The notes under the pieces are model-generated. The model did no database searches. It worked only from the letters and a program-made list of their open reading frames with translations, and had not been told where the DNA came from. The translations under genes and the position numbers were made by a program. A DNA stretch of 33,371 nucleotides from contig JAFTHS010000058.1 in assembly GCA_017457295.1 (NCBI GenBank), positions 1-33,371 of the forward strand. The letters run 5' to 3'. This DNA is from Paludibacteraceae bacterium. Lineage in GTDB: Bacteria > Bacteroidota > Bacteroidia > Bacteroidales > Paludibacteraceae. Shown piece after piece: positions 2,116 to 16,750 of this stretch (positions within the stretch are counted from its first letter, which is position 1; each line of letters opens with the position of its first letter).

Positions 2116-2511
2116 ATTGGAAATAAATAACCAAACAATACTAACCCCCTAAATTACTTATCATTCATCACTCATAGTTTATAGTTAATTCGCAACGATA
2201 CCGTTGCCCGACATATTTAATATAGCGTTATAAGCCTAGACTTGATTTTCTGAAACTTCGACACTTTCAAGAAATCATTAATGTTTCAAGTACGGTTTAT
2301 GCACGCTCGCGTTAACAGCGTGAGTTTTCCGTGCGTAAATTTGAAACATTAAGGTAGTCGAAGACCTCAGAAAATCAAATTGAAGCGAACGAAAGTTCAC
2401 GCTTTTTCGTGTATGCATAAGAATCTTATGAACAAACAATAAATCAAATAATTAACCAACGGAGTGTGCCGAAAATCCGACAAAGAGTAGGCAAAACAAA
2501 TTATTTAAATT
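2116..2511. other. Gene-free region with a large near-palindrome
   Basis: No coding sequence is supported. The stretch contains a nested inverted repeat (2242-2378) followed by a GNRA-like hairpin with a T-tract (2384-2407), a small palindrome CATAAG-AAT-CTTATG (2416-2430), and the upstream region of the lipoprotein gene. I find no TAnnTTTG box in front of that gene. Confidence 0.6.
2242..2407 (+). ncRNA. Candidate structured RNA or MITE-like near-palindrome
   Basis: Nested complementary arms define a stem of about 137 nt. TTGATTTTCTGA (2242-2253) pairs with 2367-2378, CTTCGAC (2256-2262) with 2357-2363, TTAATGTTTCAA (2278-2289) with 2341-2352, TTTATGCACG (2296-2305) with 2330-2339 through one G-U pair, and CTCGCGTT (2306-2313) with 2317-2324. 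Directly after it, AGCGAAC-GAAA-GTTCACGCT plus TTTTT (2384-2407) resembles a terminator. It could be a structured transcript or a small palindromic mobile element; I cannot decide which. No promoter was found. Confidence 0.4.
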
Positions 2512-3264
2512 ATGAAAAAGTTTTTATTAGTGTTTAGTACATTTATTTGTACTCTGTTATTTTCAAGTTGCGAAGAGAAAGTGCAACTGACTAGTCTTAA
2601 AGGAACTACTTGGAGACATGATTTTGACAAATATGGATACGTACTTTATTCTTTCTTAGCTGATGGGGCTGCTTCTATGGTAGTTGTTGATTCTAGTGAG
2701 GAAGAATTCAATTGGTTATCGTTACTGTATACATGTAGCAATTCAGGCAATGTAAAAACAAATTTACAGTACAATGGTCAAGCACATAAAAAAGGTATAT
2801 TTAATATTGAGAATGCTAAATTAGAAATGGATGGAATGGAAATGGATTTAGTGTACCACCCAGGGAATGAAGAAAAGATAAATACATTAGCAGGAACGAG
2901 TTGGGTTAGATATAATGGTAAAGACGAGGATGTTCGTAGGACTTATTATAAATATGAAGTTATTAACTTTGTTGATAATTATATAGCAATAACCTATTCG
3001 TTGCTTTCAACAATAGAGGGAGTGCTTTCTGTACCTCAAGCTATGGTCTTAAATAGATATGAAGGATATTATAGAGATTTTAAACATCCGTATTTCATAT
3101 ATAGGGAAGATCCATCATTTAATGACGACTATCAATGCGTATTGTTCAATAATAATCAAAGTCTCAAATATCATTGCGGTAAATATGATTATGATTATCA
3201 TAAATTAGATTATTATTTTAAACCTGTAAATTATTGGCCATATTACGATGGTAAAAGAGACTAG
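2512..3264 (+). CDS. Putative lipoprotein with two LxGTxW repeats
   Basis: This is a 250-residue secreted lipoprotein of unknown function. It has a charged N-terminus (MKK), a hydrophobic stretch and the lipobox LFSSC with Cys20, so it should be lipid-anchored in the cell envelope. Two similar halves each begin with a L-x-G-T-x-W motif (LKGTTW 29-34 and LAGTSW 126-131) followed by alternating strand-like segments. This is reminiscent of lipocalin-like small beta-barrel lipoproteins common in Bacteroidales. The C-terminal 70 residues are rich in Tyr and Asp. The gene is A+T-rich like the OLD/helicase pair downstream but is separated from it by 233 bp, a perfect 16-bp inverted repeat and a promoter, so it is probably a separate unit. 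Confidence 0.7.
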   Translation: MKKFLLVFSTFICTLLFSSCEEKVQLTSLKGTTWRHDFDKYGYVLYSFLADGAASMVVVDSSEEEFNWLSLLYTCSNSGNVKTNLQYNGQAHKKGIFNIENAKLEMDGMEMDLVYHPGNEEKINTLAGTSWVRYNGKDEDVRRTYYKYEVINFVDNYIAITYSLLSTIEGVLSVPQAMVLNRYEGYYRDFKHPYFIYREDPSFNDDYQCVLFNNNQSLKYHCGKYDYDYHKLDYYFKPVNYWPYYDGKRD

Positions 3265-3309
3265 TGATTAGTTCACAAAAATAGTTGACATCTTATAAAT
3301 CTCGCAATT

Positions 3310-3352
3310 CACTTCGCATAATTGAGTAGAAAGCATTCAATTATGCGAAGTG
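3310..3352. terminator. Perfect 16-bp inverted repeat after the lipoprotein gene
   Basis: CACTTCGCATAATTGA (3310-3325) and its exact complement (3337-3352) are separated by 11 bases. The repeat lies between the lipoprotein stop and the OLD/helicase promoter. There is no T-tract on either side, so it may be a terminator, a transcript-stabilising hairpin, or a site bound by a protein. Confidence 0.5.
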
Positions 3353-3420
3353 TTACATATATGGATAAATTTGAAAAGTTTTTAAAATGTAATCAAAAAA
3401 ATATTTTTTTAAACTTTTAC

Positions 3421-3451
3421 TTGCTTATCTATAAAAAAAAATGTAATTTTG
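3421..3451 (+). promoter_or_regulatory. Promoter of the OLD nuclease/helicase operon
   Basis: The -7 element TAATTTTG (3444-3451, TAnnTTTG) is preceded at 20 bp by TTG (3421-3423) as a weak -33 element. The start codon of the nuclease gene is 46 bp downstream. Confidence 0.65.
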
Positions 3452-3497
3452 CAGCGATAAATTTAATCATCGAAGATCAATATAGTACCGAATATTT

Positions 3498-5066
3498 ATG
3501 AAAACAATTTCAAAAATCATTCTTCATAATTTTAGAAGATTTACTGAATTAGAAATAGATTTTAATCCAACGATGAATATTTTAATTGGAGATAACGAAT
3601 CAGGAAAAAGTTCTGTGTTATTGGCCATTGATTTATTATCATGTGGAAGTAGATATAAAGTAGAAGAAATTGGGCTTGAAAAATTATTTAATACACAAGT
3701 TATCAATGAATACATGCAAGGAGATAGAAAAATTGAAAATTTGCCAAAATTGGAGATTGAAATCTATTTTCCAGAACAAAATAACGAGTTCTTATTTGGT
3801 CGGAATAATAGCAAACAAATAGAATCGGATGGATTACGTATGCAATGCAAACCAATGACCGAATATAGCGAACAAACCCAAAGAGCGTTAAGTAACCAGA
3901 ACGCTTCTTTTCCATTTGAATTCTATGGAATATATTTTGAAACCTTTGCGGGTCATCTTTATAATGGTTATACAAAACAACTACGCAGTATATTTATTGA
4001 TCATACAAAAAATTATTCTACTTATTCAATGAGTGAATATATTAAAACACTATACCATTCTAAATTAACTATTCAACAACGGATTGATATACAACAACAA
4101 TATCATGCTCATAAGGATGAATTTGCAAAAAATATATTGTCGCAATTTAATGATAATGAAAATAATTATGCGTTCTCTATAAAAAACTCTCCAAATTGTA
4201 ATATAGAAACTGATCTTACGATAATCGCAGATGGTATAACAATAGATAATAAAGGTATGGGGATGCAATGTTTTATTAAAACAACATTGTCTCTATCAAA
4301 AGTGGATGATAATATTGATATTGTTTTACTGGAAGAGCCTGAAAGTCACTTGAGTTATACTAATATGTTGAAATTAATAAGTCTTATTGATTCTGCAACA
4401 AACCGTCAACTTTTTATTGCAACTCATAGTGATTTAATCGCTTCTAGATTAGATTTGAGAAACTGTATATTACTGAATAGCAATAGTAAAAATCATAGTA
4501 CTTTAGGAATGATTTCCGAAGATACAGCAAAGTTCTTTATAAAAGCACCAGACAAAAATCTACTACAATTTATTTTATCTGAAAAAGTAATTTTGGTTGA
4601 AGGAGATGCAGAATATATATTGATGGAAGCCATGTATAAAAATACTGCAACTAAAGATTTGATAGATGCAGGAATTAGTGTAATTGCTGTTGATGGTAAA
4701 TGTTTCAAACGATATCTTGAAATCGCAAAGATACTAAAAATAAAGGTTGCTGTAATTACAGACAATGATTATAACTATGATGAAAACATTACAAATAGAT
4801 ATGCAGAATATATGACTACAGAATGCTCCAATATTAAAGTATTTGCAGATTCCAACAATGAAAATCACACATTTGAAGTTTGTTTGTATAAGGAAAATAA
4901 AAAAATCTGTGACGATTTGTTCAAATCACCAAGACGAACATTAGAGGTGTTAGAGTATATGCTATCCAACAAGGCAGAAGCTGCATACAACCTGCTTAGT
5001 TCAAAAGCAAATGAGTTAATCACACCTCACTATATAAAGGAAGCAATTTTATGGGTAAATGCATAA
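3498..5066 (+). CDS. OLD-family ATPase/TOPRIM endonuclease, GajA-like
   Basis: This 522-residue protein has an N-terminal ABC/SMC-type ATPase and a C-terminal TOPRIM nuclease domain, the layout of OLD nucleases and of GajA in the Gabija anti-phage system. The Walker A motif is GDNESGKSS (31-39). A signature-like KGMGMQ lies at 252-257, Walker B is IVLLEEPESHL (275-285), and the H-switch is THSD (309-312). In the TOPRIM domain, LVEGDAE (366-372) holds the metal-binding Glu368, and TDNDY (421-425) supplies the Asp-x-Asp pair (422/424). It is shorter than the well-studied GajA of about 580 residues, mostly in the region between the Walker A motif and the signature. The helicase gene begins 16 bases before its stop, so the two are translationally coupled. 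Base composition is much more A+T-rich than the housekeeping genes, consistent with transfer. The OLD family is clear; the Gabija role is inferred from the partner gene. Confidence 0.88.
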   Translation: MKTISKIILHNFRRFTELEIDFNPTMNILIGDNESGKSSVLLAIDLLSCGSRYKVEEIGLEKLFNTQVINEYMQGDRKIENLPKLEIEIYFPEQNNEFLFGRNNSKQIESDGLRMQCKPMTEYSEQTQRALSNQNASFPFEFYGIYFETFAGHLYNGYTKQLRSIFIDHTKNYSTYSMSEYIKTLYHSKLTIQQRIDIQQQYHAHKDEFAKNILSQFNDNENNYAFSIKNSPNCNIETDLTIIADGITIDNKGMGMQCFIKTTLSLSKVDDNIDIVLLEEPESHLSYTNMLKLISLIDSATNRQLFIATHSDLIASRLDLRNCILLNSNSKNHSTLGMISEDTAKFFIKAPDKNLLQFILSEKVILVEGDAEYILMEAMYKNTATKDLIDAGISVIAVDGKCFKRYLEIAKILKIKVAVITDNDYNYDENITNRYAEYMTTECSNIKVFADSNNENHTFEVCLYKENKKICDDLFKSPRRTLEVLEYMLSNKAEAAYNLLSSKANELITPHYIKEAILWVNA

Positions 5067-6085
5067 TACAAGCCGTTGCAGGAGCAGGTAAAACAACAAA
5101 TATAGTAAATCGGTTAAATCTTATTGACCGATTTTTAATCGTTACATATACAACAAACAATACTGAACATCTTAGATTATCTATTATAAAAAGATTTGGT
5201 TATTTTCCATCTAATATAACCTTATATTCTTATTTTCAATTTTTGATCAGCGTTTGCTACAAGCCATTTCTATCTGATCAAATGTGTGCATTTGGGATTT
5301 CATGGAAAACACCTCCAGAATACACTCTTAGAATGAAACGTAGTAATCTAGACTTTTATTTATCAAAAAAGAAATATTTGTACTATAACAGGATTGCTAA
5401 ATTATGTCAAGATACATATATTACAAATATTAGTAATAGAATTAATAAGTACTACGATTATTTCTTTTTTGATGAAATACAAGATTTAGCTGGTCATGAT
5501 TTTAATTTAATAAAAAGTATTTCTCCTCAAAATACAAATTTACTATTCTTAGGCGATTTTTACCAACATACATTTGATACTAGTAGGGATGGGATTATAA
5601 ATGTAAATTTACATAAAGAGATGCATAAATATTTTGATTTATGGAGAAAAGAAAACTTTATAATTGACACAATAAGTTTACAACAGAGTTATCGATGTTC
5701 AAAAACAGTATGTGATTTTGTAAGAATCAAAATAGGTATTCATATTTATGCCATTAATGAACGAGAGAGTATAGTTGAATATATAACTTCCGCAGAAAGA
5801 ATAGATGCCATAGTGAAAGACAATAATATTATCAAGCTTTTTTTTAACAATAGTGATAAATATAATTGTTGGTCTTTGAATTGGGGGAATTCAAAAGGAT
5901 TAGATCATTTTACAGACGTTTGTGTAATCCTTAATAAAACTACAAATATAAAATATAATAGTAATCAATTACAGGAGTTAGCACCAAGCACCAGAAATAA
6001 ATTATATGTTGCATGTACTAGAGCAAGAGGTAATTTATATCTTATTCCACAAGATTTATTAAATGATTATAGAATTATTCCATAA
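5051..6085 (+). CDS. Compact UvrD/Rep-like SF1 helicase, GajB-like
   Basis: This 344-residue protein carries every canonical UvrD-type motif: I AVAGAGKTT (8-16), II DEIQD (141-145), III LGDFYQ (167-172), IV QSYRCS (212-217), V SKGLDHF (281-287) and VI LYVACTRAR (318-326). It is therefore an SF1A ATPase, predicted to sense or move on DNA next to its OLD partner. It is far shorter than UvrD/PcrA (over 700 residues) and shorter than the studied GajB (about 490). The gap between motif I and II is only about 125 residues and that between IV and V about 65, so the 1B and especially 2B insertions are reduced. The start codon overlaps the nuclease gene by 16 bases. Family membership is secure; helicase activity and a defence function are inferred. 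Confidence 0.85.
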   Translation: MGKCIIQAVAGAGKTTNIVNRLNLIDRFLIVTYTTNNTEHLRLSIIKRFGYFPSNITLYSYFQFLISVCYKPFLSDQMCAFGISWKTPPEYTLRMKRSNLDFYLSKKKYLYYNRIAKLCQDTYITNISNRINKYYDYFFFDEIQDLAGHDFNLIKSISPQNTNLLFLGDFYQHTFDTSRDGIINVNLHKEMHKYFDLWRKENFIIDTISLQQSYRCSKTVCDFVRIKIGIHIYAINERESIVEYITSAERIDAIVKDNNIIKLFFNNSDKYNCWSLNWGNSKGLDHFTDVCVILNKTTNIKYNSNQLQELAPSTRNKLYVACTRARGNLYLIPQDLLNDYRIIP

Positions 6086-6245
6086 ACTTTGCTCACATAT
6101 GGTTGCTATAAGATATTTCTTCGGCAGCAATTATTAGTTTTTTTTGATAATCCTTTGCTCCTTCTCATTGCAATCCCAATAACGAAATTTTACATGTCGT
6201 CGGCACAATCTTCGGCACGAAGAAAAAAATAACAAAAAAATCACA

Positions 6246-6282
6246 CAAGCGGGAGGCGTTGGTAATCAACACCTTCCGCTTG
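6246..6282. repeat. Long imperfect hairpin
   Basis: CAAGCGGGAGGCGTTG (6246-6261) pairs with CAACACCTTCCGCTTG (6267-6282) through one mismatch and one G-U, around a 5-base loop. CTTTAAGCACCTTTTTA follows, which may give it terminator activity on the plus strand. Confidence 0.65.
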
Positions 6283-6313
6283 CTTTAAGCACCTTTTTAT
6301 GGCAAAATTTACA

Positions 6314-6353
6314 AATCTTCGGCACAAAACGACTATAATGCCGAAGATTTTTG
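6314..6353 (+). terminator. Inverted repeat of the ATCTTCGGCA unit with T-tract
   Basis: AATCTTCGGCA (6314-6324) pairs exactly with TGCCGAAGATT (6339-6349), followed by more T residues. It has the shape of an intrinsic terminator but sits 230 bp from the preceding gene, and the same arm recurs alone elsewhere (6207, 7919). It may instead belong to a repeat family. Confidence 0.4.
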
Positions 6354-6523
6354 CAGCATTATTATAGAGACACGTTTATAGAAAGCCACCAAAAGCCCAC
6401 AGATGTCCCACATATCTCCTATTGTGGTCACCTAATCAACAAATCACTTTTCCTATTCCGGTGTATAAGGATATATAAAAGATAAGTAAGTATACGGAAA
6501 GAACACATTTTTTCATAAAAATA

Positions 6524-6555
6524 TTTGTCTATATCACAAAAAAGCATTACCTTTG
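6524..6555 (+). promoter_or_regulatory. Promoter of the AAA/DUF4143 gene
   Basis: The -33 TTTG (6524-6527) and -7 TACCTTTG (6548-6555) have 20-bp spacing. This placement excludes the upstream in-frame TTG at 6553 as start, because that codon lies inside the -7 element. Confidence 0.88.
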
Positions 6556-6597
6556 CGGGGTAAAAATGCGGATAACCGCAAAAATACCCCACAAAGT

Positions 6598-7899
6598 ATG
6601 AAAATCGAGCGGAAAAGACACCTACAAAGACTCATCAATAGTCGAAAAAACGGACAGATAAAAATTATCACAGGAATAAGACGCTGCGGTAAGTCTTACC
6701 TGCTTAATGTCCTATACCGAGAATACCTTCTGCAAGAGGGGATCAAGCCAGAGCAAATCATCGCTATCGAACTTGACAACGATATTGCTATTCGTTTGCG
6801 CAACCCACTCGAACTGAGTGCTCACCTCAGACAAGCGGTACAGGATACTAACACCGAATATTACATCATGCTTGATGAGATACAAATGGTAGAAACCATT
6901 GACAATCCATATTTACCCAAAGAGACTGGGGCTAAAATCTCTTTCGTGGATGTACTACTCGGACTAAAAAGTCTTCCAAATGTAGATGTCTATGTCACTG
7001 GAAGCAACTCCAAAATGCTCTCATCGGAGGTTGCTACCACTTTCCGTGATAGAGGAGAAGAGATACATATCACACCACTTACTTACGAGGAGTTTTACGA
7101 GGCATACCCCAATGAAAAACGATATGCGTGGCGCGAGTTTATGACCTATGGAGGCATGCCTTTCGTGCTACATAAAAACTCACACGAAGAAAAAGCCAAA
7201 TATTTGCAAGACCTATTCCGCCTCACATATATCAAAGATGTGATAGACCGTAATAACCTACGCACAAAAACAGAAATCTTAGACGAACTTCTCAATGTGG
7301 TGTCTTCATCAGTAGGATCACTTACTAATCCAACAAGAATAGCCAATACCTTTCAATCAGTAAAGGGTGTGAACATCAAAAACGAAACTATCTCATCCTA
7401 TCTTGACTACTTTATTGATGCATATATATTGAGAAAATCACATCGCTATAACATCAAAGGACGCTCGTATATAGATACTCCTCTCAAGTATTATTTTGCA
7501 GATAATGGATTGAGAAACGCCCTGCTTAATTTCCGTCAGCAAGAAGAAAACCACATTATGGAAAATATCCTCTACAACGAACTAATCTCCAGAGGATTTA
7601 GCGTAGATGTAGGAGTCGTAGAATATAACCATACTAATGCAGAAGGCAAGAAACTGCGTTCACAACTGGAAGTCGATTTCGTTGTGAATAAAACCAATAT
7701 GCGATATTATATTCAATCTGCATTAACAATTGTAGATGAAGAAAAACGACAACAAGAAATCAATTCGCTCACTCGTATTGATGATTCATATACTAAAATT
7801 GTTGTCGTGCGCGACGATATTCTCCCATGGACTGACAACAACGGAATGCAATACATCAATATTGAAGACTTCCTTTTAGATAAGATCAATCTATTATAA
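6598..7899 (+). CDS. AAA ATPase with DUF4143 C-terminal domain
   Basis: This 433-residue protein belongs to the AAA_14/DUF4143 family, very common in Bacteroidales and of unclear function. The Walker A motif is GIRRCGKS (26-33) and Walker B is MLDEIQ (91-96). A TGSNSKML segment follows as a likely sensor, and the C-terminal half has the DUF4143 pattern with ENILYNEL and a late VDFVV strand, resembling a nuclease-like fold of unproven activity. The ATG at 6598 is chosen because the promoter -7 box ends at 6555. The gene is monocistronic and flanked on both sides by AATCTTCGGCAC repeats. It has often been assumed to be a DNA-linked ATPase; its closeness to the OLD/helicase pair is not evidence of a shared function, since it has its own promoter and different base composition. 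Confidence 0.85.
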   Translation: MKIERKRHLQRLINSRKNGQIKIITGIRRCGKSYLLNVLYREYLLQEGIKPEQIIAIELDNDIAIRLRNPLELSAHLRQAVQDTNTEYYIMLDEIQMVETIDNPYLPKETGAKISFVDVLLGLKSLPNVDVYVTGSNSKMLSSEVATTFRDRGEEIHITPLTYEEFYEAYPNEKRYAWREFMTYGGMPFVLHKNSHEEKAKYLQDLFRLTYIKDVIDRNNLRTKTEILDELLNVVSSSVGSLTNPTRIANTFQSVKGVNIKNETISSYLDYFIDAYILRKSHRYNIKGRSYIDTPLKYYFADNGLRNALLNFRQQEENHIMENILYNELISRGFSVDVGVVEYNHTNAEGKKLRSQLEVDFVVNKTNMRYYIQSALTIVDEEKRQQEINSLTRIDDSYTKIVVVRDDILPWTDNNGMQYINIEDFLLDKINLL

Positions 7900-9678: not shown

Positions 9679-10494
9679 TTATTTGCTTTTTTTCATGGCT
9701 TGATGAGCTGCTCGTTGGGTAAGGCGTTTTTGTTGTGAAGTCATTGTGCCGTTTTTGTAAGGGTTGTGTCGGCAGTTTTTGCCTGTGAGCAGTTCGTACC
9801 AAACACATGAAGCAGTATAGCGGCCATACTCATAACTCAAATGGTATCCGTCGCGGCATAGAGTATCACCAAGTTTGGTGGTACGAGCAATTTTGATTGC
9901 TTTCCCACAAGGAATGAGAGTGAGTTCGGGATAGCGCAGAAGTAGCGCTTGTGTGGCAGAATGTATGCTATCGTCCATGATCTGTTGACTCTTTTGATAC
10001 CTTGGGAAAGCAGGGTGTTTGGCATCTTGTGAGTAAGACCAAGTTTGCATCCAGCAAAATTGTGCGTGGGGTTGGTATTTGCGTACGGAGTCGATGAGCG
10101 CTCCTAGATATGGTTCGTAGGTAGACTGAATACCGCTGTCGTGACTAGCTTGCTGAAATGAGATGTAGTCCCATTGGTCGAGCAATAATGCTTGACGAAG
10201 AGAATAGCCTTCATGAACTGTGCGGATGCCTTCTTTGATGTATCGAAAGCTATATGCAGCGGTGTCTTTGAGAAGAAAATTATGATGCTGCTGCAACGAG
10301 CATCCTCCATAGTATAGATTTCCGATGATGATGGGCTGTTTGCCAGCTTGACATAGCGGAGCAAGTTCTTGCTCAACAGCATCCCATGAGAAACTGTTAC
10401 CAATGCAAAGGACACGAATAGTGTCGCTGGCTATCAATAATGGTGATGTTAAAAAAGATAAAGCAAAAATAAAGAGATGAAGAAAGTGTTTCAT
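9679..10494 (-). CDS. Secreted DUF4886 (SGNH-like) protein
   Basis: The likely product is 271 residues, starting at the ATG complementary to 10492-10494; an upstream in-frame extension would run across the promoter. A signal peptide (about residues 1-23) leads into VLCIGNSFSWDA (28-39), the family hallmark, where the GNSFS block resembles the GDS Ser block of SGNH esterases. A later HLSYEYGRY segment plausibly contributes the catalytic His. DUF4886 proteins are frequent near polysaccharide-degradation genes in Bacteroidetes, so a carbohydrate esterase role is plausible, here beside a GH9 enzyme, but this is inferred. It is transcribed from a promoter at 10527-10558 that overlaps the divergent one of the serine hydrolase gene. 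Confidence 0.85.
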   Translation of the reverse strand: MKHFLHLFIFALSFLTSPLLIASDTIRVLCIGNSFSWDAVEQELAPLCQAGKQPIIIGNLYYGGCSLQQHHNFLLKDTAAYSFRYIKEGIRTVHEGYSLRQALLLDQWDYISFQQASHDSGIQSTYEPYLGALIDSVRKYQPHAQFCWMQTWSYSQDAKHPAFPRYQKSQQIMDDSIHSATQALLLRYPELTLIPCGKAIKIARTTKLGDTLCRDGYHLSYEYGRYTASCVWYELLTGKNCRHNPYKNGTMTSQQKRLTQRAAHQAMKKSK

Positions 10495-10526
10495 GATTTT
10501 TGGATTGTATTTTCTAAAAGTTTGTG

Positions 10527-10558
10527 CAAAAGTACAAAAAAAATTGCATATGTCCAAA
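10527..10558 (-). promoter_or_regulatory. Promoter of the DUF4886 gene
   Basis: On the minus strand, -7 TACTTTTG (10534-10527) and -33 TTTG (10558-10555) have 20-bp spacing. It overlaps the divergent plus-strand promoter at 10544-10574. Confidence 0.82.
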
Positions 10559-10574
10559 AAAAATAGTACTTTTG
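10544..10574 (+). promoter_or_regulatory. Promoter of the serine hydrolase gene
   Basis: The -7 TACTTTTG (10567-10574) is preceded at 20 bp by TTG (10544-10546). The -33 region of each divergent promoter lies inside the spacer of the other, so the two probably compete for polymerase. Confidence 0.8.
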
Positions 10575-10603
10575 CAGCAGAAATAAATCTTATACTAATA
10601 CAT

Positions 10604-11701
10604 ATGAAACGTATTCTTTTGGTTTCCTTATTGGGAATTGGTTTGTTGCTTTCGAGTTGCGGAAAGCGTGGTGGTTCATCGTTGCACTTTGATGCAGATA
10701 GTGCGCGCGTGCTCATTGAGCAGGCGATAGCGGACTCGCTTATACCCGGTGCAGTGCTCTGTGTGGTGGATGAAGGAAAAGTGGTGCACTTGGAGGCGTA
10801 CGGTCATCGTGCTATCGTGCCTAAACATGAGAGGATGACCACAAACACCATCTTTGATCTTGCTTCGGTCAGCAAACCAACAGGCGCAGGTACAGCGGCA
10901 TTGTTGTTGGTGAAAGAAGGGCTATTATCAGTAGATGATCTTGTGTGCAAATACATCCCTAATTACCATCCCGATGTGACAGTACGCCATTTGATGACTC
11001 ACTATTCGGGATTACCCGCTTACTTTACTGCGGCGCCTATGGAGAAGGTCTATCTGGAGCGTTTGGGTGAGATGGCTGATACAGAGCAAGCGCGTCGCGA
11101 TTTCACTATCGACTCGATTGCACGTTGTAAGCGTCCTACAGCCATTGACGAGAAATATCGCTACTCATGTCTGAACTTTATTTCGCTGCAACGTGTGGTA
11201 GAGACTATCGTGGGCACTGATGTGAATACCTATTTGCGTGAAAAGTTGTATGGCCCTCAAGGATGGGAAACGATGGGTTGGTTGCCCGATAAGGCAAACA
11301 TCGAACGTATTGCTCCTACAGAGTGGAATGAGAATGCGAAGCTGCGTGGCGATGTGCATGACCCGGTGGCACGCGTGATGATGTGCGGTATATCAGGTAA
11401 TGCGGGTGTGTTCGCTACTGCCGAGGAGATTGGCAAATGGGCTATCTGGTATATGAGTCAATCGCAAGAATTACGCGAAAGTGCTTGCAATGCAGGACTT
11501 TGGACAGAAGATGTCCAATTGGCCGCGGATACATTGCAGACAACCGTGGAGAGCAGACATACGGGATATACTGGAACAAACGTAGTGGTATGGCCAGAGT
11601 ATAATCGCGCTGTTGTACTATTGGCACATCGCGTACATCCATACGACAAAGGTAGTATGTACAGACTGAGAAGTGGAATAAAAGAATTGGTGCGACCATA
11701 A
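10604..11701 (+). CDS. Beta-lactamase-family serine hydrolase lipoprotein
   Basis: This 365-residue protein starts at the ATG 30 bp after the -7 box. A lipobox LLSSC with Cys19 predicts an envelope lipoprotein. The fold is that of class C beta-lactamase/penicillin-binding-protein-like esterases: SVSK (88-91) holds nucleophile Ser88 and Lys91, YSCLN (187-191) is the second motif, and HTG (319-321) is the third. The second motif normally reads Y-x-N or Y-S-D, so Cys at 189 is unusual. Family members include D-aminopeptidases, esterases and peptidoglycan hydrolases; no substrate can be inferred. It is divergent from the DUF4886 gene with overlapping promoters, and followed 68 bp later by the deoxynucleoside kinase operon with its own promoter. 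Confidence 0.87.
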   Translation: MKRILLVSLLGIGLLLSSCGKRGGSSLHFDADSARVLIEQAIADSLIPGAVLCVVDEGKVVHLEAYGHRAIVPKHERMTTNTIFDLASVSKPTGAGTAALLLVKEGLLSVDDLVCKYIPNYHPDVTVRHLMTHYSGLPAYFTAAPMEKVYLERLGEMADTEQARRDFTIDSIARCKRPTAIDEKYRYSCLNFISLQRVVETIVGTDVNTYLREKLYGPQGWETMGWLPDKANIERIAPTEWNENAKLRGDVHDPVARVMMCGISGNAGVFATAEEIGKWAIWYMSQSQELRESACNAGLWTEDVQLAADTLQTTVESRHTGYTGTNVVVWPEYNRAVVLLAHRVHPYDKGSMYRLRSGIKELVRP

Positions 11702-11715
11702 ATTTAGAAGATAAA

Positions 11716-11747
11716 TTTGCATATGTCCTCAAAAAGTAGTACCTTTG
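11716..11747 (+). promoter_or_regulatory. Promoter of the deoxynucleoside kinase operon
   Basis: The -33 TTTG (11716-11719) and -7 TACCTTTG (11740-11747) are 20 bp apart. The start codon is 22 bp after the -7 box. Confidence 0.88.
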
Positions 11748-11769
11748 TGCTCGCGTTTATCTATTAGAA

Positions 11770-12408
11770 ATGTATATAGCTATTGCAGGAAATATTGGAG
11801 CTGGTAAGACAACATTGACAAAAATGTTGGCGAAATATTATGGTTGGGAACCGCGCTTCGAATCGGTGAGTTTCAATCCATACTTGGAGGATTATTATAC
11901 CGACATCAAGCGTTGGTCGTTCTGCGTAGAGACCTATTTCCTTAAAGAGCGTTTCAAAGATATGCTTCGTATCAAGGAGGTAGAACACACCATAGTGCAA
12001 GATAGAAGCATCTTTGAGGGGGTGTATGTGTTTGTTACCAACAACTACTTACGTGGTGACTTGTCGGAGAGGGATTATCAAACGTATATGGAACTTTTTG
12101 ACCATATGAAACGCTTAATGCGAATGCCCGATTTGATGATATATTTGCGCAAGTCGGTACCTTCGTTGATTGCACAAATACAAAAGCGTGGGCGCGACTA
12201 CGAGAAGACAATGCAATTGGATTATCTGCGAGATTTGAACGAACGATATGAGGATTTTATCTTCAAACAATACGAGGGTAGGGTACTAGTGATTGAAAGT
12301 GATGAGATGGACTTTGAGAGTAACCCCGAAGATTTCCGATTAATAATTAATAAGATAGATGCAGAACTATTCGGTTTGTTTAGTGAACTGAATTGGGAAA
12401 AGAAGTAA
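11770..12408 (+). CDS. Deoxynucleoside kinase (paralogue 1)
   Basis: This 212-residue enzyme of the dCK/dGK-type family phosphorylates salvaged deoxynucleosides with ATP. The P-loop is GNIGAGKT (7-14). QDRS (77-80) is the family's (E/Q)-x-R-S-type catalytic block, followed by IFEGVYVF. KRGRDYE (139-145) is the arginine-rich LID. Length is typical for bacterial dAK/dGK-like enzymes. It is followed 23 bp later by a close paralogue, recalling lactobacilli, where tandem kinases form a dAK/dGK heterodimer. The base specificity of each copy cannot be read from motifs alone. Gly84 stands where the second copy has Asp after its Glu, in the segment that shapes the substrate pocket. Confidence 0.92.
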   Translation: MYIAIAGNIGAGKTTLTKMLAKYYGWEPRFESVSFNPYLEDYYTDIKRWSFCVETYFLKERFKDMLRIKEVEHTIVQDRSIFEGVYVFVTNNYLRGDLSERDYQTYMELFDHMKRLMRMPDLMIYLRKSVPSLIAQIQKRGRDYEKTMQLDYLRDLNERYEDFIFKQYEGRVLVIESDEMDFESNPEDFRLIINKIDAELFGLFSELNWEKK

Positions 12409-12431
12409 ATAACCCCTAATATATATAAGGT

Positions 12432-13082
12432 ATGCATATAGCAGTAGCAGGAAATATTGGTTGTGGCAAGACTACTCTGACCAATATGTTAGCAAAACAT
12501 TATGGCTGGCAGCCACGCTTCGAGAGTGTGGAGTTTAACCCCTATTTGGAGGACTTCTATGCGGACATGGGCCGCTGGTCGTTTAACTTGCAGATATACT
12601 TTTTGAACAAACGATTCAAAGATGTGGTGGATATATCCAACTCCAACGAGTTTATTATCCAAGATCGCACTATCTATGAGGATGCTCGTATCTTTGCGCC
12701 TAACTTGCATCGTCAAGGATATATGTCAGATCGCGATTTTGACAACTATCGCGACCTGTTCGACTTGATGATGTCGCTCGTGAAGATGCCTGACCTGATG
12801 ATTTATATTCGCAGTACCATTCCCAACTTGGTGGCGCAGATACAAAAACGCGGTCGTGCTTACGAATCAAGTATGCGTATCGACTATTTGCAGGGATTGA
12901 ACGAACTCTACGAGAACTGGATTGCAGACTACAAAGGCAAACTGCTGATCATTGATGGCGATACCATCAAGTTTGGCGACCGTCCAGAAGATTTCCGCTA
13001 TATCACCGACCGCATTGATGCGGAGCTCTTTGGCTTATTCCCATTTGAGGGGGAAACTGCTCACGGTAGTGAGATAAAGTAG
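12432..13082 (+). CDS. Deoxynucleoside kinase (paralogue 2)
   Basis: This 216-residue paralogue of the upstream kinase shares roughly half of its residues by eye, with the same motif order: P-loop GNIGCGKT (7-14), QDRTIYED in the substrate-binding block, and LID KRGRAYE. It keeps the same C-terminal ending pattern with DAELFGLF and then adds a short tail. It is likely cotranscribed with paralogue 1 (23-bp gap), and perhaps with the recombinase gene beginning 69 bp downstream. The differences in the QDRS/QDRT block suggest divergent nucleoside specificity, plausible for a purine pair or for a dimer of unlike subunits. Confidence 0.92.
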   Translation: MHIAVAGNIGCGKTTLTNMLAKHYGWQPRFESVEFNPYLEDFYADMGRWSFNLQIYFLNKRFKDVVDISNSNEFIIQDRTIYEDARIFAPNLHRQGYMSDRDFDNYRDLFDLMMSLVKMPDLMIYIRSTIPNLVAQIQKRGRAYESSMRIDYLQGLNELYENWIADYKGKLLIIDGDTIKFGDRPEDFRYITDRIDAELFGLFPFEGETAHGSEIK

Positions 13083-13151
13083 GACACTGCGCTATAGGAC
13101 GGCGTTCTGCCTATTGGATATAGAATGCTCTCTGAACTATAAGTTGTAGGG

Positions 13152-14081
13152 ATGATTAAGCGATTTCTGGATTATATTGCAATAGAGAAACGGTACTCAG
13201 CGCGTACCGTAGGGGAATATGGGGATGATTTGAAAGCATGGTGCGCATTCTTGGGATGGACAGTGGAGGAGTTTGATCCTCAAAAGGTGGATGCGGAAGA
13301 TGTGAAAGCGTGGATGATTGATATGCTGGATAAGCAAAAGCAGTCGCCGCGTAGCGTGAAAAGACGATTGTCGGCAGTGAAGAGTTTCTATAAGTTTATG
13401 CTCCGCGTGGGGTTAGTAAAAGTGGATATTACACGTGCAATTGTAGCTCCCAAGACCGATAAACCGTTGCCATTGTACTTTCGTGAAAGTGAGATGCAAG
13501 GGGTGACAATTAATCAGCATCGCGACTGGAACGAGGCTATGAGCGAGGAAGAGCAGTTCGTGCATCTGCGTGATTATTTGGCGGTGGAAATGCTTTATCA
13601 AACGGGTATGCGTCGCGCTGAATTGGTGGGGCTGAGAGATGCAGATGTAGATACCAAGCAAAAGCAAGTGCGCGTGTTTGGTAAGAGAAGCAAAGAGCGA
13701 ATAGTACCAATGGGCGAAGGACTTTGTGAATTGATTGAGGAATATAGAAAAAATAAATGCGATTTTTTAGGCATAAGTGGTGATGTTGGCACGTTTCTTG
13801 TGCGGAAAAATATAGAAGGCGAGTGGGTGGAGATGAATGCGAATACTTTATATAAGGTTGTGCGCGCGCGGATGGGAGAGGTGAGTACGCTGAAGAAACA
13901 TTCACCTCACGTCTTGCGGCATACATTTGCTACTACAATGCTAAATAATGGGGCAGATATTCGCACTATACAAAGTTTATTAGGACATGCTAGTTTGGCA
14001 GCTACGCAAGTATATACTCATGCTACTTTCGAGCAAATCAAAGATGTGTACCAAGCAACGCATCCAAGAGGAAAGAAGTAG
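13152..14081 (+). CDS. Tyrosine recombinase, XerC/XerD-like
   Basis: This 309-residue site-specific recombinase is of the size of XerC/XerD, which resolve chromosome dimers at dif. The N-terminal SAM-like core-binding domain spans about residues 1-90. The catalytic domain has Arg154 (TGMRRAEL), Lys178 (FGKRSKER), His253-x-x-Arg256 (HVLRH), His279 (LLGHAS) and the nucleophile Tyr288 (VYTHA). All six catalytic positions are present. The gene lies among housekeeping genes, with no att sites or phage genes in reach, so a Xer housekeeping role is more likely than a mobile-element integrase. The gap to the kinase gene is 69 bp without a recognisable promoter. Confidence 0.9.
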   Translation: MIKRFLDYIAIEKRYSARTVGEYGDDLKAWCAFLGWTVEEFDPQKVDAEDVKAWMIDMLDKQKQSPRSVKRRLSAVKSFYKFMLRVGLVKVDITRAIVAPKTDKPLPLYFRESEMQGVTINQHRDWNEAMSEEEQFVHLRDYLAVEMLYQTGMRRAELVGLRDADVDTKQKQVRVFGKRSKERIVPMGEGLCELIEEYRKNKCDFLGISGDVGTFLVRKNIEGEWVEMNANTLYKVVRARMGEVSTLKKHSPHVLRHTFATTMLNNGADIRTIQSLLGHASLAATQVYTHATFEQIKDVYQATHPRGKK

Positions 14082-14110
14082 TTCTGGGGTAATGCTTAGA
14101 AAATAAAATA

Positions 14111-14125
14111 CCAAGCGATGCTTGG
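14111..14125. repeat. Small hairpin between the recombinase and hpf genes
   Basis: CCAAGC-GAT-GCTTGG forms a perfect 6-bp stem with a 3-base loop, 42 bp before the hpf SD-like sequence. There is no T-tract, so a terminator role is doubtful. Confidence 0.45.
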
Positions 14126-14152
14126 GAAAATAATATTAACATAACATAAAAA

Positions 14153-14158
14153 AGGAGG
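14153..14158 (+). promoter_or_regulatory. Strong Shine-Dalgarno-like sequence of hpf
   Basis: AGGAGG lies 5 bases before the ATG at 14164. This is notable because almost no other gene in the window has a recognisable SD, as is usual in Bacteroidetes. Confidence 0.75.
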
Positions 14159-14163
14159 AAACC

Positions 14164-14451
14164 ATGAAACTGAACGTAAAAGCTGTGAATTTCGAGACTG
14201 CAGAGCGTCTTGAGAAGTACATTGAGAAGAAAACACGTCGTTATGAGAAATTGCTTTCCCCTTCCGCAGAGCTGGAGATCCGAATGACGGTGGTAAAGCC
14301 AGAAACGAATCTGAACAAAGAAACCGCTATTCGTATTATGGGTATGGGAACGGAATTGTTTGCACAGAAGGTTTGCGACACTTTTGAACAAGGAATTGAT
14401 GAATGCTTGGAAGCATTGGACAAACAATTAGAAAAGCATAAAGATAGATAA
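14164..14451 (+). CDS. hpf: Ribosome hibernation promoting factor HPF (short form)
   Basis: This 95-residue protein of the HPF/RaiA family binds the 30S A/P-site region and helps inactivate ribosomes in stationary phase. It has the family pattern: a beta strand MKLNVKAVNF, a helix with ETAERLEKYIEKKTRRYEKL, strands EIRMTVV and a C-terminal helix. It lacks the long C-terminal dimerisation domain of long-form HPF, so it is the short type. The AGGAGG preceding its ATG is exceptional for this genome. A good terminator follows immediately, then the promoter of the tRNA-tuf operon. Confidence 0.9.
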   Translation: MKLNVKAVNFETAERLEKYIEKKTRRYEKLLSPSAELEIRMTVVKPETNLNKETAIRIMGMGTELFAQKVCDTFEQGIDECLEALDKQLEKHKDR

Positions 14452-14473
14452 ACCATGCTCGTTTTTGAGCTTT

Positions 14474-14500
14474 AAGCGGGGTTTTTGCCCCGCTTTTTTA
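14474..14500 (+). terminator. Intrinsic terminator after hpf
   Basis: AAGCGGGG (14474-14481) and CCCCGCTT (14488-14495) form an 8-bp stem with a 6-base loop, followed by a T-tract. It lies 23 bp after the hpf stop. Confidence 0.93.
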
Positions 14501-14539
14501 TGAAAAATGCAATAAAATGCAATTTTTTTTCAAAAATAT

Positions 14540-14570
14540 TTTGTCAGTTAAAAAAAATGTAGTACCTTTG
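14540..14570 (+). promoter_or_regulatory. Promoter of the tRNA-tuf-secE-nusG operon
   Basis: The -33 TTTG (14540-14543) and -7 TACCTTTG (14563-14570) have 19-bp spacing, 57 bp before the first tRNA. It is the only strong promoter before tuf, and probably drives the whole tRNA-tuf-nusG block. Confidence 0.88.
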
Positions 14571-14626
14571 CACCGCTTTTCCGCCGACGTGTTAGGAGGC
14601 GTGGCAAAATAGCCGAAAAGTGACCT

Positions 14627-14700
14627 GCCTCTTTAGCTCAGTTGGCCAGAGCACGTGATTTGTAATCTCGGGGTCGTTGGTTCGAATCCGACAAGAGGCT
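14627..14700 (+). tRNA. tRNA-Thr (UGU)
   Basis: A 74-nt cloverleaf: acceptor GCCTCTT pairs with AAGAGGC, with discriminator T. The anticodon loop TTTGTAA gives UGU, and the T-loop contains TTCGAAT. CCA is not encoded. Confidence 0.95.
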
Positions 14701-14725
14701 CAAAGACGAACATTGAAATAGTATT

Positions 14726-14811
14726 GGGAGTATTCCAGAGCGGCCAAATGGGGCAGACTGTAAATCTGCTGGTTTTCACCTTCGGTGGTTCGAATCCATC
14801 TGCTCCCACCA
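14726..14811 (+). tRNA. tRNA-Tyr (GUA)
   Basis: An 86-nt class II tRNA with a long variable arm. Acceptor GGGAGTA pairs with TGCTCCC, and the anticodon in GACTGTAAATC is GUA. Discriminator A is followed by an encoded CCA (14809-14811), unlike the other tRNAs of this cluster. Confidence 0.95.
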
Positions 14812-14848
14812 ATAACAAAATAACCGTCGCGGAAGTCGTGGTTAATTC

Positions 14849-14921
14849 GCGGAAATAGCTCAGTCGATAGAGCACTAGCCTTCCAAGCTGGGGGTCGCGG
14901 GTTTGAGCCCCGTTTTCCGCT
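14849..14921 (+). tRNA. tRNA-Gly (UCC)
   Basis: A 73-nt cloverleaf: GCGGAAA pairs with TTTCCGC, and the anticodon loop CTTCCAA gives UCC. CCA is not encoded. Confidence 0.95.
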
Positions 14922-14977
14922 CGATTTTTGTTTATACACTCGTATTTTTCGAGTAGTGGCGAACGTTAGTTCGTGTT

Positions 14978-15049
<72 letters not shown>

Positions 15050-15068
15050 CGAAGTTTTAATGCCAAAT

Positions 15069-15088
15069 AATACTCTTTCGGGAGTATT
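15069..15088. repeat. Hairpin upstream of tuf
   Basis: AATACTC (15069-15075) pairs with GAGTATT (15082-15088) around a 6-base loop. It lies between the last tRNA and tuf and may be a processing signal; there is no T-tract. Confidence 0.5.
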
Positions 15089-15130
15089 GTGGTGTGTAAA
15101 ACAGGTGATAAAATTAGGTAAAACTTATAG

Positions 15131-15144
15131 TATTAACGTTAATA
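15131..15144. repeat. Perfect 14-bp palindrome before tuf
   Basis: TATTAACGTTAATA is its own reverse complement, 16 bp before the tuf ATG. It could bind a dimeric regulator or form part of the tuf leader; it may also be chance in A+T-rich DNA. Confidence 0.5.
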
Positions 15145-15160
15145 ACTAAATTCTAGAATT

Positions 15161-16348
15161 ATGGCAAAAGAAAAATTTGACCGTTCGAAACCACACGTGA
15201 ACATTGGTACAATTGGTCACGTTGATCACGGTAAAACTACTTTGACCGCAGCTATTACCACTGTATTGGCTTCTCGTGGTCTTTCTGAGCTTCGTTCATT
15301 CGACTCTATCGACAATGCTCCAGAGGAGAAAGAGCGTGGTATTACTATTAACACTTCACACGTTGAGTATCAAACCGCTACTCGTCACTACGCTCACGTT
15401 GACTGCCCTGGTCACGCTGACTACGTAAAGAACATGGTAACTGGTGCTGCTCAAATGGACGGCGCAATCATCGTAGTAGCTGCTACTGATGGTCCTATGC
15501 CTCAAACACGTGAGCACATCCTTTTGGCTCGTCAGGTGAACGTTCCTCGCTTGGTTGTATTTATGAACAAGTGCGACCTTGTTGATGACGCTGAGATGCT
15601 TGACCTCGTTGAGATGGAGATGCGTGAGCTTCTTTCGTTCTATGAGTTCGATGGCGACAATACTCCTATCATCCGTGGTTCTGCTCTTGGTGCTTTGAAT
15701 GCAGTAAAAGAGTGGGAAGACAAAGTTATGGAGTTGATGGATGCTTGCGATACATGGATTGAGTTGCCTCCACGTGCTGTTGATAAACCATTCTTGATGC
15801 CTGTTGAGGACGTATTCTCAATTACAGGTCGTGGTACTGTAGCAACTGGTCGTATCGAAACTGGTGTCATCAAAGTTGGTGAGGAAGTTCAATTGATCGG
15901 TCTTGGTGCTGAGGGTAAGAAGTCAGTTGTAACTGGTGTTGAGATGTTCCGTAAGTTGCTCGACCAAGGTGAGGCTGGTGATAACGTAGGTTTGTTGCTC
16001 CGTGGTATTGATAAAGATGAGGTTCGCCGTGGTATGGTAATCACCCACCCAGGTGTTGTTAAGCCTCACGAGGAGTTCAAGGCTTCTGTTTATATCTTGA
16101 AGAAAGAGGAAGGTGGCCGTCACACTCCATTCCACAACCACTATCGTCCACAATTCTACATCCGTACAATGGACGTAACTGGCGAGATTACTTTGCCAGA
16201 GGGTACAGAGATGGTAATGCCAGGTGACAACTTGGAGATCAAGGTTAAGTTGATCTACCCAGTTGCTTGCTCAGAGGGTCTTCGTTTCGCTATCCGCGAG
16301 GGTGGTCGCACCGTAGGTTCTGGTCAAATTACCGGTTTGCTTGACTAA
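15161..16348 (+). CDS. tuf: Elongation factor Tu
   Basis: This 395-residue GTPase delivers aminoacyl-tRNA to the ribosome. The G1 motif is GHVDHGKT (19-26), G3 is DCPGH (81-85) and G4 is NKCD (136-139), followed by domains 2 and 3 ending in the conserved GSGQI segment. Length is normal. It sits after four tRNA genes and before tRNA-Trp-secE-nusG, the conserved Bacteroidetes order. A perfect hairpin follows in the gap to tRNA-Trp. Its first in-frame ATG, at 15161, matches the family N-terminus MAKEKF. Confidence 0.98.
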
Positions 16349-16368
16349 TATTTAAGCAACAATAAAAA

Positions 16369-16398
16369 CGATTGCCAAAGTCGAAACTTTGGCAATCG
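16369..16398. repeat. Perfect 13-bp hairpin between tuf and tRNA-Trp
   Basis: CGATTGCCAAAGT-CGAA-ACTTTGGCAATCG, with a tetraloop and no T-tract. It ends 4 bp before the tRNA-Trp gene. It is likely an RNA-processing or 3'-end-protecting hairpin that shields tuf mRNA after tRNA excision, rather than a terminator. Confidence 0.6.
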
Positions 16399-16402
16399 AC
16401 AT

Positions 16403-16473
16403 ACGGAAGTCTTCTAATGGTAAGAAAGCGGTCTCCAAAACCGTCAATGTGGGTTCGATTCCTGCCTTCCGTG
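16403..16473 (+). tRNA. tRNA-Trp (CCA)
   Basis: A 71-nt cloverleaf: ACGGAAG pairs with CTTCCGT, discriminator G, and anticodon loop CTCCAAA gives CCA. It lies between tuf and secE as usual in bacteria. The 3' CCA is not encoded. Confidence 0.95.
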
Positions 16474-16561
16474 CTGTTACAAAAATAGCTTCCGTCTGAC
16501 TTCGGCGAATGCTGAGGCCAGATGTTTGGCGCAAATAAGAATAAAGAAAAAAACTACAGAT

Positions 16562-16750
16562 ATGAAGTTCGTTGAAAGTATTAAAGAATCCTACGAGGAG
16601 TTGGTTCATAAAGTGAGCTGGCCTACTCGTAAAGAGTTGTCCAAAAGCGCAGTGCTAGTATTGATAGCTTCCATAATACTAGCGTTGATAGTGTGGCTAA
16701 TGGATTTCTGTTTCGAGTCAATCATGACTTTTGTTTACGGCTTATTCTAA
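16562..16750 (+). CDS. secE: Preprotein translocase subunit SecE
   Basis: This 62-residue protein has the short-type SecE layout: an amphipathic helix with EELVHKVSWPTRKEL (residues 12-26) and one membrane segment (about 29-48). It is the essential clamp subunit of the SecYEG channel. The ATG at 16562 is chosen over an earlier in-frame non-ATG codon because it matches the family N-terminus. It is directly upstream of nusG, the conserved order. Confidence 0.95.
   Translation: MKFVESIKESYEELVHKVSWPTRKELSKSAVLVLIASIILALIVWLMDFCFESIMTFVYGLF

Follow-up and report, generated by a model that had tools for sequence, protein, structure and literature searches.

A compact Gabija-type gene pair in a Paludibacteraceae contig, with a GajB that has no room for the 2B subdomain

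The stretch of DNA analysed here (the window) comprises 33,371 nucleotides (nt) of contig JAFTHS010000058.1 from a Paludibacteraceae bacterium (GCA_017457295.1, forward strand), and carries a gajA-like gene, encoding a nuclease of the OLD family, overlapped by a gajB-like gene, encoding a small helicase-like protein. The two belong to a compact branch that is real, well conserved and of the Gabija type; it has the gene order and catalytic residues of canonical Gabija, is probably kin to it, has two genes that occur together, and has a GajB with no room for the 2B subdomain. We consider it likely that the pair is a compact Gabija defence operon, in which GajB would act as a DNA-responsive nucleoside triphosphatase (NTPase) switch on GajA rather than as a processive helicase.

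In Gabija of Bacillus cereus, GajB has helicase motifs and shows no unwinding (PMC10681800). With 2B dropped and the tested ATPase residues kept across many phyla, the compact branch is in effect a deletion experiment made by nature. Should it confer defence, a helicase model of Gabija would be hard to keep, and a switch model would be testable on a small two-gene system.

Assignment and conserved residues

Among the Pfam families, the gajA-like protein of 522 amino acids (aa) matches OLD-like_TOPRIM (3.5e-20), AAA_15 (3.4e-18) and also AAA_21, and the 344-aa gajB-like protein matches Viral_helicase1 on top (4.5e-10) and UvrD-helicase next (5.4e-07). The PADLOC profiles, a search against which had been suggested in an earlier note on this DNA made from its letters, return GajA model PDLC00102 as the best match of the first protein (6.9e-104, residues 3-517) and GajB model PDLC00148 as that of the second (1.9e-49, residues 3-332). 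Since the Pfam and PADLOC matches are significant, the motif-bearing open reading frames (ORFs) are not due to chance. That note's OLD/TOPRIM gene, helicase-like gene, 16-nt overlap and listed motifs are all present (Table 1), and its assignment to Gabija is supported by the PADLOC profiles, by co-occurrence and by trees of both genes. In its own genome gajA has one match at E<=0.001.

Conservation was assessed in 79 aligned pairs, namely the window, 76 of 93 intact pairs, L032 and L033. GajA K37, E280, E368, D422, D424, E460 and K492 are invariant, as are GajB K14, D141, E142, Q144, D145, R215 and R324, the latter protein also having motif IV at R215, motif V around G283 and motif VI at R324. 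As placed by alignment, and with ligand roles taken from PMC7049728, the two-metal set of OLD nucleases is complete in each of the 79: E368, D422 and D424 for metal A, E/D372, T/S458 and E460 for metal B, and the basic K492. Position 372, corresponding to a metal B ligand, is E in 69 and D in 10 of the 79.

Table 1. Features of the gajA/gajB locus, in window coordinates
Feature	Position	Strand	Basis or remark
Bacteroidota-type promoter-like site TTG-N20-TAATTTTG	3421..3451	+	Script scan; ends 46 nt before gajA ATG
gajA-like gene, OLD-family ABC ATPase + Toprim nuclease domain	3498..5066	+	ORF, 522 aa; Pfam; PADLOC
GajA Walker A GDNESGKS, residues 31-38	3588..3611	+	G31, N33, G36, K37 invariant, 79/79
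GajA KGMGMQ, residues 252-257	within 3498..5066	+	ORF translation
GajA Walker B LLEEPESHL, residues 277-285	4326..4352	+	E279, E280, P281, E282 invariant, 79/79
GajA Toprim glutamate motif LVEGDAE, residues 366-372	4593..4613	+	E368 in 79/79
GajA Toprim DxD (DND 422-424; D422, D424)	4761..4769	+	79/79
gajA/gajB overlap with gajB start codon and gajA stop codon	5051..5066	+	16 nt
gajB-like gene, SF1A (UvrD-type) helicase core, short N-terminus before Walker A	5051..6085	+	ORF, 344 aa
GajB Walker A AGAGKTT, K14	5078..5098	+	K14 in 79/79
GajB motif II DEIQD, residues 141-145	5471..5485	+	D141, E142, Q144, D145 in 79/79

Recurrence of the pair

The pair is patchily distributed within the order, where a PDLC00102-type GajA (E<=1e-30) is found in six of 295 genomes, the window's own included, and a PDLC00148 match (<1e-40) lies directly 3' of it in all six; the gajB copy of one of these genomes (G080) has an internal stop. 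At E<=0.001 PDLC00148 matches something in 293 of the 295 genomes, because the profile also picks up other superfamily 1 (SF1) helicases.

Genome contigs scanned by GajA alignment, with the best 80 of 510 relatives kept, have a compact GajB immediately 3' of GajA in 79 of 80 loci, the remaining one (L107) stopping at a contig edge; among those 79, gajB is split in L043 and L052 and cut by the contig end in L111. A scan of viral contigs starting from GajB gave 27 loci, made up of 19 compact GajBs, each preceded by a GajA (split in L121), an intermediate pair, L140, and seven loci without a GajA match, of which one (L141) begins at a contig edge and the four measured have 165-168 aa between motifs IV and V. 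Lone OLD and UvrD proteins that never co-occur, which the earlier note had named as grounds for giving up the Gabija assignment, are thus not what these loci hold. Across the genome, unnamed-genome and viral sets some loci seem to be one and the same element, for example L114/L119 and L084/L121/L125, each with identical junctions, and probably also L047 and the G020 locus, so that the counts are of loci and not of independent events. Record titles of the 80 genome loci name, among others, Bacteroidota, Pseudomonadota, Bacillota, Spirochaetes, Acidobacteria, Nitrospirales and candidate phyla. The two compact GajB models are matched by all 79 aligned GajBs, whose rows were gathered as relatives of the window pair.

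Sizes are narrowly distributed in the 82 main-clade loci (L038-L125), with GajB at 335-353 aa (median 343) and GajA, as called, at 518-585 aa (median 522), and in 11 divergent compact loci (L126-L136) GajB has 355-406 aa; L043, L052, L091, L111 and L121, with split or cut genes, are excluded from the length and GC (guanine plus cytosine) counts. DNA similar to a compact pair is also present in PLSDB, where 1583 plasmid records cover >=80% of it and 2291 match it at all, mainly records from Klebsiella and Escherichia. On one of them, the IncF conjugative Escherichia coli plasmid p1916D18-2 (L188), the pair lies at 3001-5570 beside vapBC, again with a 16-nt overlap, and its GajB is annotated as 'hypothetical protein', as it is in seven of the eight plasmid records listed, this one included.

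A conserved overlap between the two genes

Among the 98 loci with both genes (L107, cut by a contig end, being left out), 75 overlap by exactly 16 nt when the first start codon is taken. An in-frame ATG, GTG or TTG stands at the 16-nt position in 81 of the 98, all of them within the 87 main-clade loci; the other six main-clade loci have an ATG one codon earlier, and the 11 divergent compact loci overlap by 8-71 nt. Counting the stop codon as one, the fourth-last codon of gajA is the isoleucine codon ATA in 79 of 88 genes (the 87 main-clade genes and that of the window, which itself has GTA there). At the 16 loci above 55% GC, ATA occupies this place in 14, against 57 of 474 isoleucine codons across the rest of those genes. 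Third-position identity in gajA is 0.81 inside the overlap and 0.40 upstream of it, and together with the conservation of ATA this means that the overlap is conserved in both frames. Overlapping frames have already been noted for Class 2 OLD genes (PMC6755086). The 16-nt overlap probably couples translation of GajA and GajB, and its fixed length offers a simple handle on their stoichiometry.

Size and domain layout

Considering what distinguishes the compact proteins from canonical Gabija, the loss in GajA is mainly C-terminal. From the Walker A lysine to the Walker B glutamate the window protein has 243 aa, compared with 245-289 in seven canonical GajAs (253 in L176, a canonical GajA matched by phmmer to that of B. 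cereus), which leaves similar room for the helical insert of the ATPase domain. From D422 to the end it has 100 aa, compared with 125-206 in the canonical proteins; because the first spacing is near canonical and the C-terminus much shorter, the missing length falls mainly in the latter, making GajA Class 1-sized, and not between Walker A and the signature, where the earlier note had put it. Median lengths from DxD to the end, as a statement of size only, are 100 in compact (19 rows), 167 in canonical (seven rows) and 107 in class 1 OLD proteins (nine rows). Judged by size, compact GajA does not have the hallmark of Class 2 OLD proteins, which exceed Class 1 by about 50 aa and carry an additional helical domain at the C-terminus.

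In GajB, motifs IV and V are separated by 68 aa, compared with 213 in the canonical GajB of L176 (itself cut by the locus end, although it is the only canonical row, all of them being cut in this way, that is usable for this spacing) and about 284 in UvrD/PcrA-like rows. A gap of 68 aa is too short for a domain of about 100 aa, so there is no room for 2B. Motifs Ic and II lie 77 aa apart; in L176 the distance is 99 aa and in seven canonical rows it reaches 158, a difference which suggests that 1B is reduced and still present. The claim that the helicase had lost most of 1B and 2B therefore stands for 2B and goes too far for 1B. By motif spacing the protein fits 1A, 1B and 2A but not 2B, the four subdomains being those of the B. 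cereus structure and our GajB model being of low confidence. A short N-terminus was weakened as a hallmark of compact GajB: the Walker A lysine is residue 14 here and residue 30-69 in seven canonical rows, but B. cereus GajB starts just about 8-9 residues earlier. The viral-contig pair L140 (4286-7356) has a GajA of 566 aa and a GajB of 457 aa with 157 aa between motifs IV and V, its 2B region being half-reduced.

Comparison with known systems

The B. cereus VD045 Gabija (GajA/GajB, PDB 8SM3) has the same arrangement of an OLD ATPase–Toprim gene followed by a superfamily 1A (SF1A) helicase-like gene, and the same Toprim E/DxD, Walker A and DExQD motifs. Its GajA has 578 aa, whereas that of the window has 522 and is about 46 aa shorter after DxD; its GajB has 494 aa, whereas that of the window has 344, no room for 2B, and a start some 8-9 residues nearer Walker A. 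Single-sequence phmmer searches fail to link the window pair to the B. cereus proteins, at E<=0.001 for GajA and at E<=1 for GajB. The PADLOC compact models, PDLC00102 and PDLC00098 for GajA (532 and 534 aa) and PDLC00148 and PDLC00140 for GajB (369 and 365 aa), share the compact plan and are matched over most of their length by the two proteins of the window; they fit another compact pair, L128, far better (GajA 712 bits with PDLC00098, GajB 421 bits with PDLC00140) than the window pair (346 bits with PDLC00102, 167 bits with PDLC00148). PADLOC thus already files such pairs under Gabija. The literature on compact Gabija, Gabija subtypes and short GajB, supplements lying outside the search, yielded no description of a compact branch; one paper gives a tree of 18 Gabija systems including two E. 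coli strains (PMC13304284).

The class 1 OLD protein of Thermus scotoductus (6P74) has the same catalytic layout, with about 94 aa after DxD compared with 100 here. Class 1 OLD genes stand alone (PMC6755086), whereas compact GajA adjoins a small GajB. Other defence ATPases were considered and set aside, as the match to AriA of PARIS is weaker and partial (7.1e-21) and that to the retron ATPase PtuA reaches 46 bits against a cut-off of 500; neither AriB nor a reverse transcriptase is among the families listed for six window proteins (the best 25 of 101 for GajA and the best 25 of 30 for GajB).

Descent of the compact branch

The trees unite the compact members of each gene in one clade, which appears to lie beside canonical Gabija, the position of GajB being less firm. 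In the GajA tree (36 rows, the broken OLD genes L177 and L187 left out) the 19 compact rows are united with support of 100/99, the intermediate pair L140 is their sister (99/94), and the main clade, marked by the 16-nt overlap, forms a branch sister to that of the pair L128. The GajB tree (52 rows) unites the compact proteins with 100/100 and gives them the same sister, L140 (97/85), with canonical GajB near and not firmly resolved; L014 and L015, labelled UvrD-like, group with canonical GajB. Alignment of the compact and canonical GajA profiles with hhalign gives a probability of 100 and an E value of 3.9e-40 over 401 columns. Distances in GajA and GajB are correlated (Mantel r 0.77 in 69 main-clade pairs, a value that none of 2000 permutations reached, and 0.94 over the full 79), and the compact GajB profile matches PcrA (3.5e-14) and B. 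cereus GajB (1.1e-12) in the PDB.

It is unlikely that the pair arose independently, by a class 1 OLD nuclease recruiting a small SF1 helicase of its own and coming to resemble Gabija by convergence. The C-terminal size of GajA, its profile's best PDB match, a motif IV-V interval strongly unlike that of canonical GajB, and a GajB tree that does not set the compact proteins firmly beside canonical GajB all speak for such an origin. The GajA tree, however, sets the nine class 1 OLD rows apart from compact and canonical proteins together (100/99), and both genes share a sister pair that is intermediate in form.

Proposed function and what weighs against it

If the pair is a compact Gabija operon, GajA would be a Toprim nuclease under the control of its ATPase, cutting DNA through the two-metal mechanism of OLD proteins, and GajB a minimal SF1A motor (1A, a reduced 1B and 2A, no 2B) bound to it as a subunit and probably produced in step with it by way of the fixed overlap. 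GajB would sense DNA ends or single strands and then hydrolyse nucleotides within the complex, and this hydrolysis would switch GajA on against invading phage DNA; because 2B is missing, GajB most likely performs no processive unwinding. An NTPase-switch role fits a branch in which the nuclease and ATPase residues and part of 1B persist and 2B is gone. In B. cereus a GajA tetramer binds GajB dimers in a 4:4 complex, with GajB making contact through 1B and with 2A and 2B untraceable in one cryo-electron microscopy map (PMC10781630, PMC10822852, PMC10681800). A DNA-stimulated (d)NTPase role has been proposed for B. cereus GajB (Cheng et al. 2023, via PMC10568477), and for Pseudomonas aeruginosa Gabija the proposed trigger is phage DNA ends kept from RecBCD (PMC12407980).

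We think it unlikely that GajB still works as a translocase or helicase, with part of GajA standing in for 2B. Such activity would agree with the invariance of the tested SF1 motif residues in the 79 pairs and with the low-confidence GajB model, which aligns best with Rep, UvrD and PcrA; yet B. cereus GajB, which keeps 2B, unwinds neither alone nor with GajA (PMC10681800), and the IV-V spacing falls far below that of UvrD/PcrA-like rows. Least probable of all is a module for DNA repair or recombination, formed of an OLD nuclease and a UvrD-like motor and unconnected with phage defence, although Schiltz et al. speculated on a role in repair or replication for Class 2 OLD proteins with a helicase (PMC6755086). 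The patchy presence within the order, the occurrence in viral contigs and in >2,000 plasmid records, and a GC content below that of the flanks in most loci speak against it, as do the PADLOC matches among flanking ORFs, for which there is no background control, and the PDC-S01-type ATPase gene after the pair in the window.

Returning to the compact operon with a GajB switch, several points count against it. The C-terminal size of GajA is that of class 1 and not class 2, the compact GajA profile has the class 1 protein TsOLD as its top match in the PDB (1.5e-16), and B. cereus GajA is absent among the best 60 of the 71 PDB chains matched by that profile. In the GajA tree L140 and L176 sit on long branches, the outgroup is no deeper than class 1 OLD, and there are just seven canonical rows from one phylum. 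Nearest neighbours in GajA and GajB agree in just 40 of 69 rows, possibly because rows are closely spaced or because some exchange has occurred. The GajB structure model is weak (predicted local distance difference test score, pLDDT, of 62). ATP binding by B. cereus GajB has been tied to extra N-terminal residues missing from a short form (PMC10681800), and because its start is nearer still to Walker A, compact GajB may bind nucleotide poorly alone; by this analogy it may need GajA for NTPase activity or have none. In the literature searched, no compact-branch member was found to have been tested against phage.

A bolder proposal, which we put forward as doubtful, is that this branch represents a minimal form of Gabija occurring in nature, in which the partner of GajA cannot be a UvrD-type helicase, GajB is a DNA-triggered (d)NTPase switch and unwinding is dispensable for immunity, and which is widespread, with >1,500 mostly enterobacterial plasmid records. 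Its probability is lowered because the N-terminal difference from B. cereus GajB is small.

Surroundings, promoter and possible acquisition

The GC content is 28.0% for the pair and 43.0% for the window once 2501-6552 is set aside, which bears out the description of the pair as A+T-rich relative to its flanks, but the low-GC zone starts near 2500, 5' of the pair, and is wider than it, taking in an orphan lipoprotein-like gene. In related loci the GC of the pair lies below that of the flanks in 74 of 80, by a mean of 6.3 points (sd 5.8), with 13 of 93 loci lacking 1 kb on both sides left out. The earlier note had also given the pair its own promoter, and a match to the Bacteroidota promoter consensus does precede gajA (Table 1); a scan with this consensus found 16 sites in the window on both strands, compared with a mean of 2.8 and a maximum of 7 in 100 local shuffles.

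Acquisition as a unit, which that note had inferred, is plausible, being suggested at most: the GC difference in related loci favours it, but no empty site was definable among 14 stretches from nine family genomes compared with the window. The gene at 2-640, which we take to be sdhB-like, is matched in 57 of 61 family genomes. Among the compared stretches just three (L165, L168 and L169) extend far past it, L166 and L167 being cut by contig ends, and the window's next ten genes have no match in them (tblastn, E<=1e-5), one 55-bp stretch being matched. Two genomes of the same genus carry the region 10493-16600 on other contigs. In a sample of 18 of the 93 loci, where on either side the closest ORF of >=120 aa within 3 kb was taken, eight of 36 flanking ORFs match PADLOC families (E<=1e-10, no background rate), some of them generic (reverse transcriptase, RecD-like).

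Downstream, the next gene (6553-7899) encodes an AAA_14/DUF4143 ATPase matching PADLOC PDC-S01 (7.7e-103), with its own promoter-like site at 6525. Upstream, the A+T-rich gene at 2512-3264 shares the low-GC island with the pair and encodes 250 aa with no significant family in Pfam, PADLOC or NCBIfam, its start reading as lipoprotein-like; just 5' of it, at 2459-2493, lies an Rfam RF02914 DUF805b RNA (41.9 bits, above the gathering score). A long imperfect hairpin at 2242-2378 (DNA fold z-score -6.7) is found inside a dispersed repeat resembling a miniature inverted-repeat transposable element, and 2130-2500 used as a query has eight matches in its own genome including itself, five of them substantial at 81-100% identity. 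At 1181-2115 a HATPase_c gene (1181-1831) overlaps a DUF4325 STAS-like gene (1825-2115); a promoter-like site lies at 1124, and the two genes are candidates for an anti-sigma-like or signalling role. The segment 10524-10578 resembles many places in two same-genus genomes and, because it has promoter-like sites on both strands, is probably a dispersed promoter-associated repeat.

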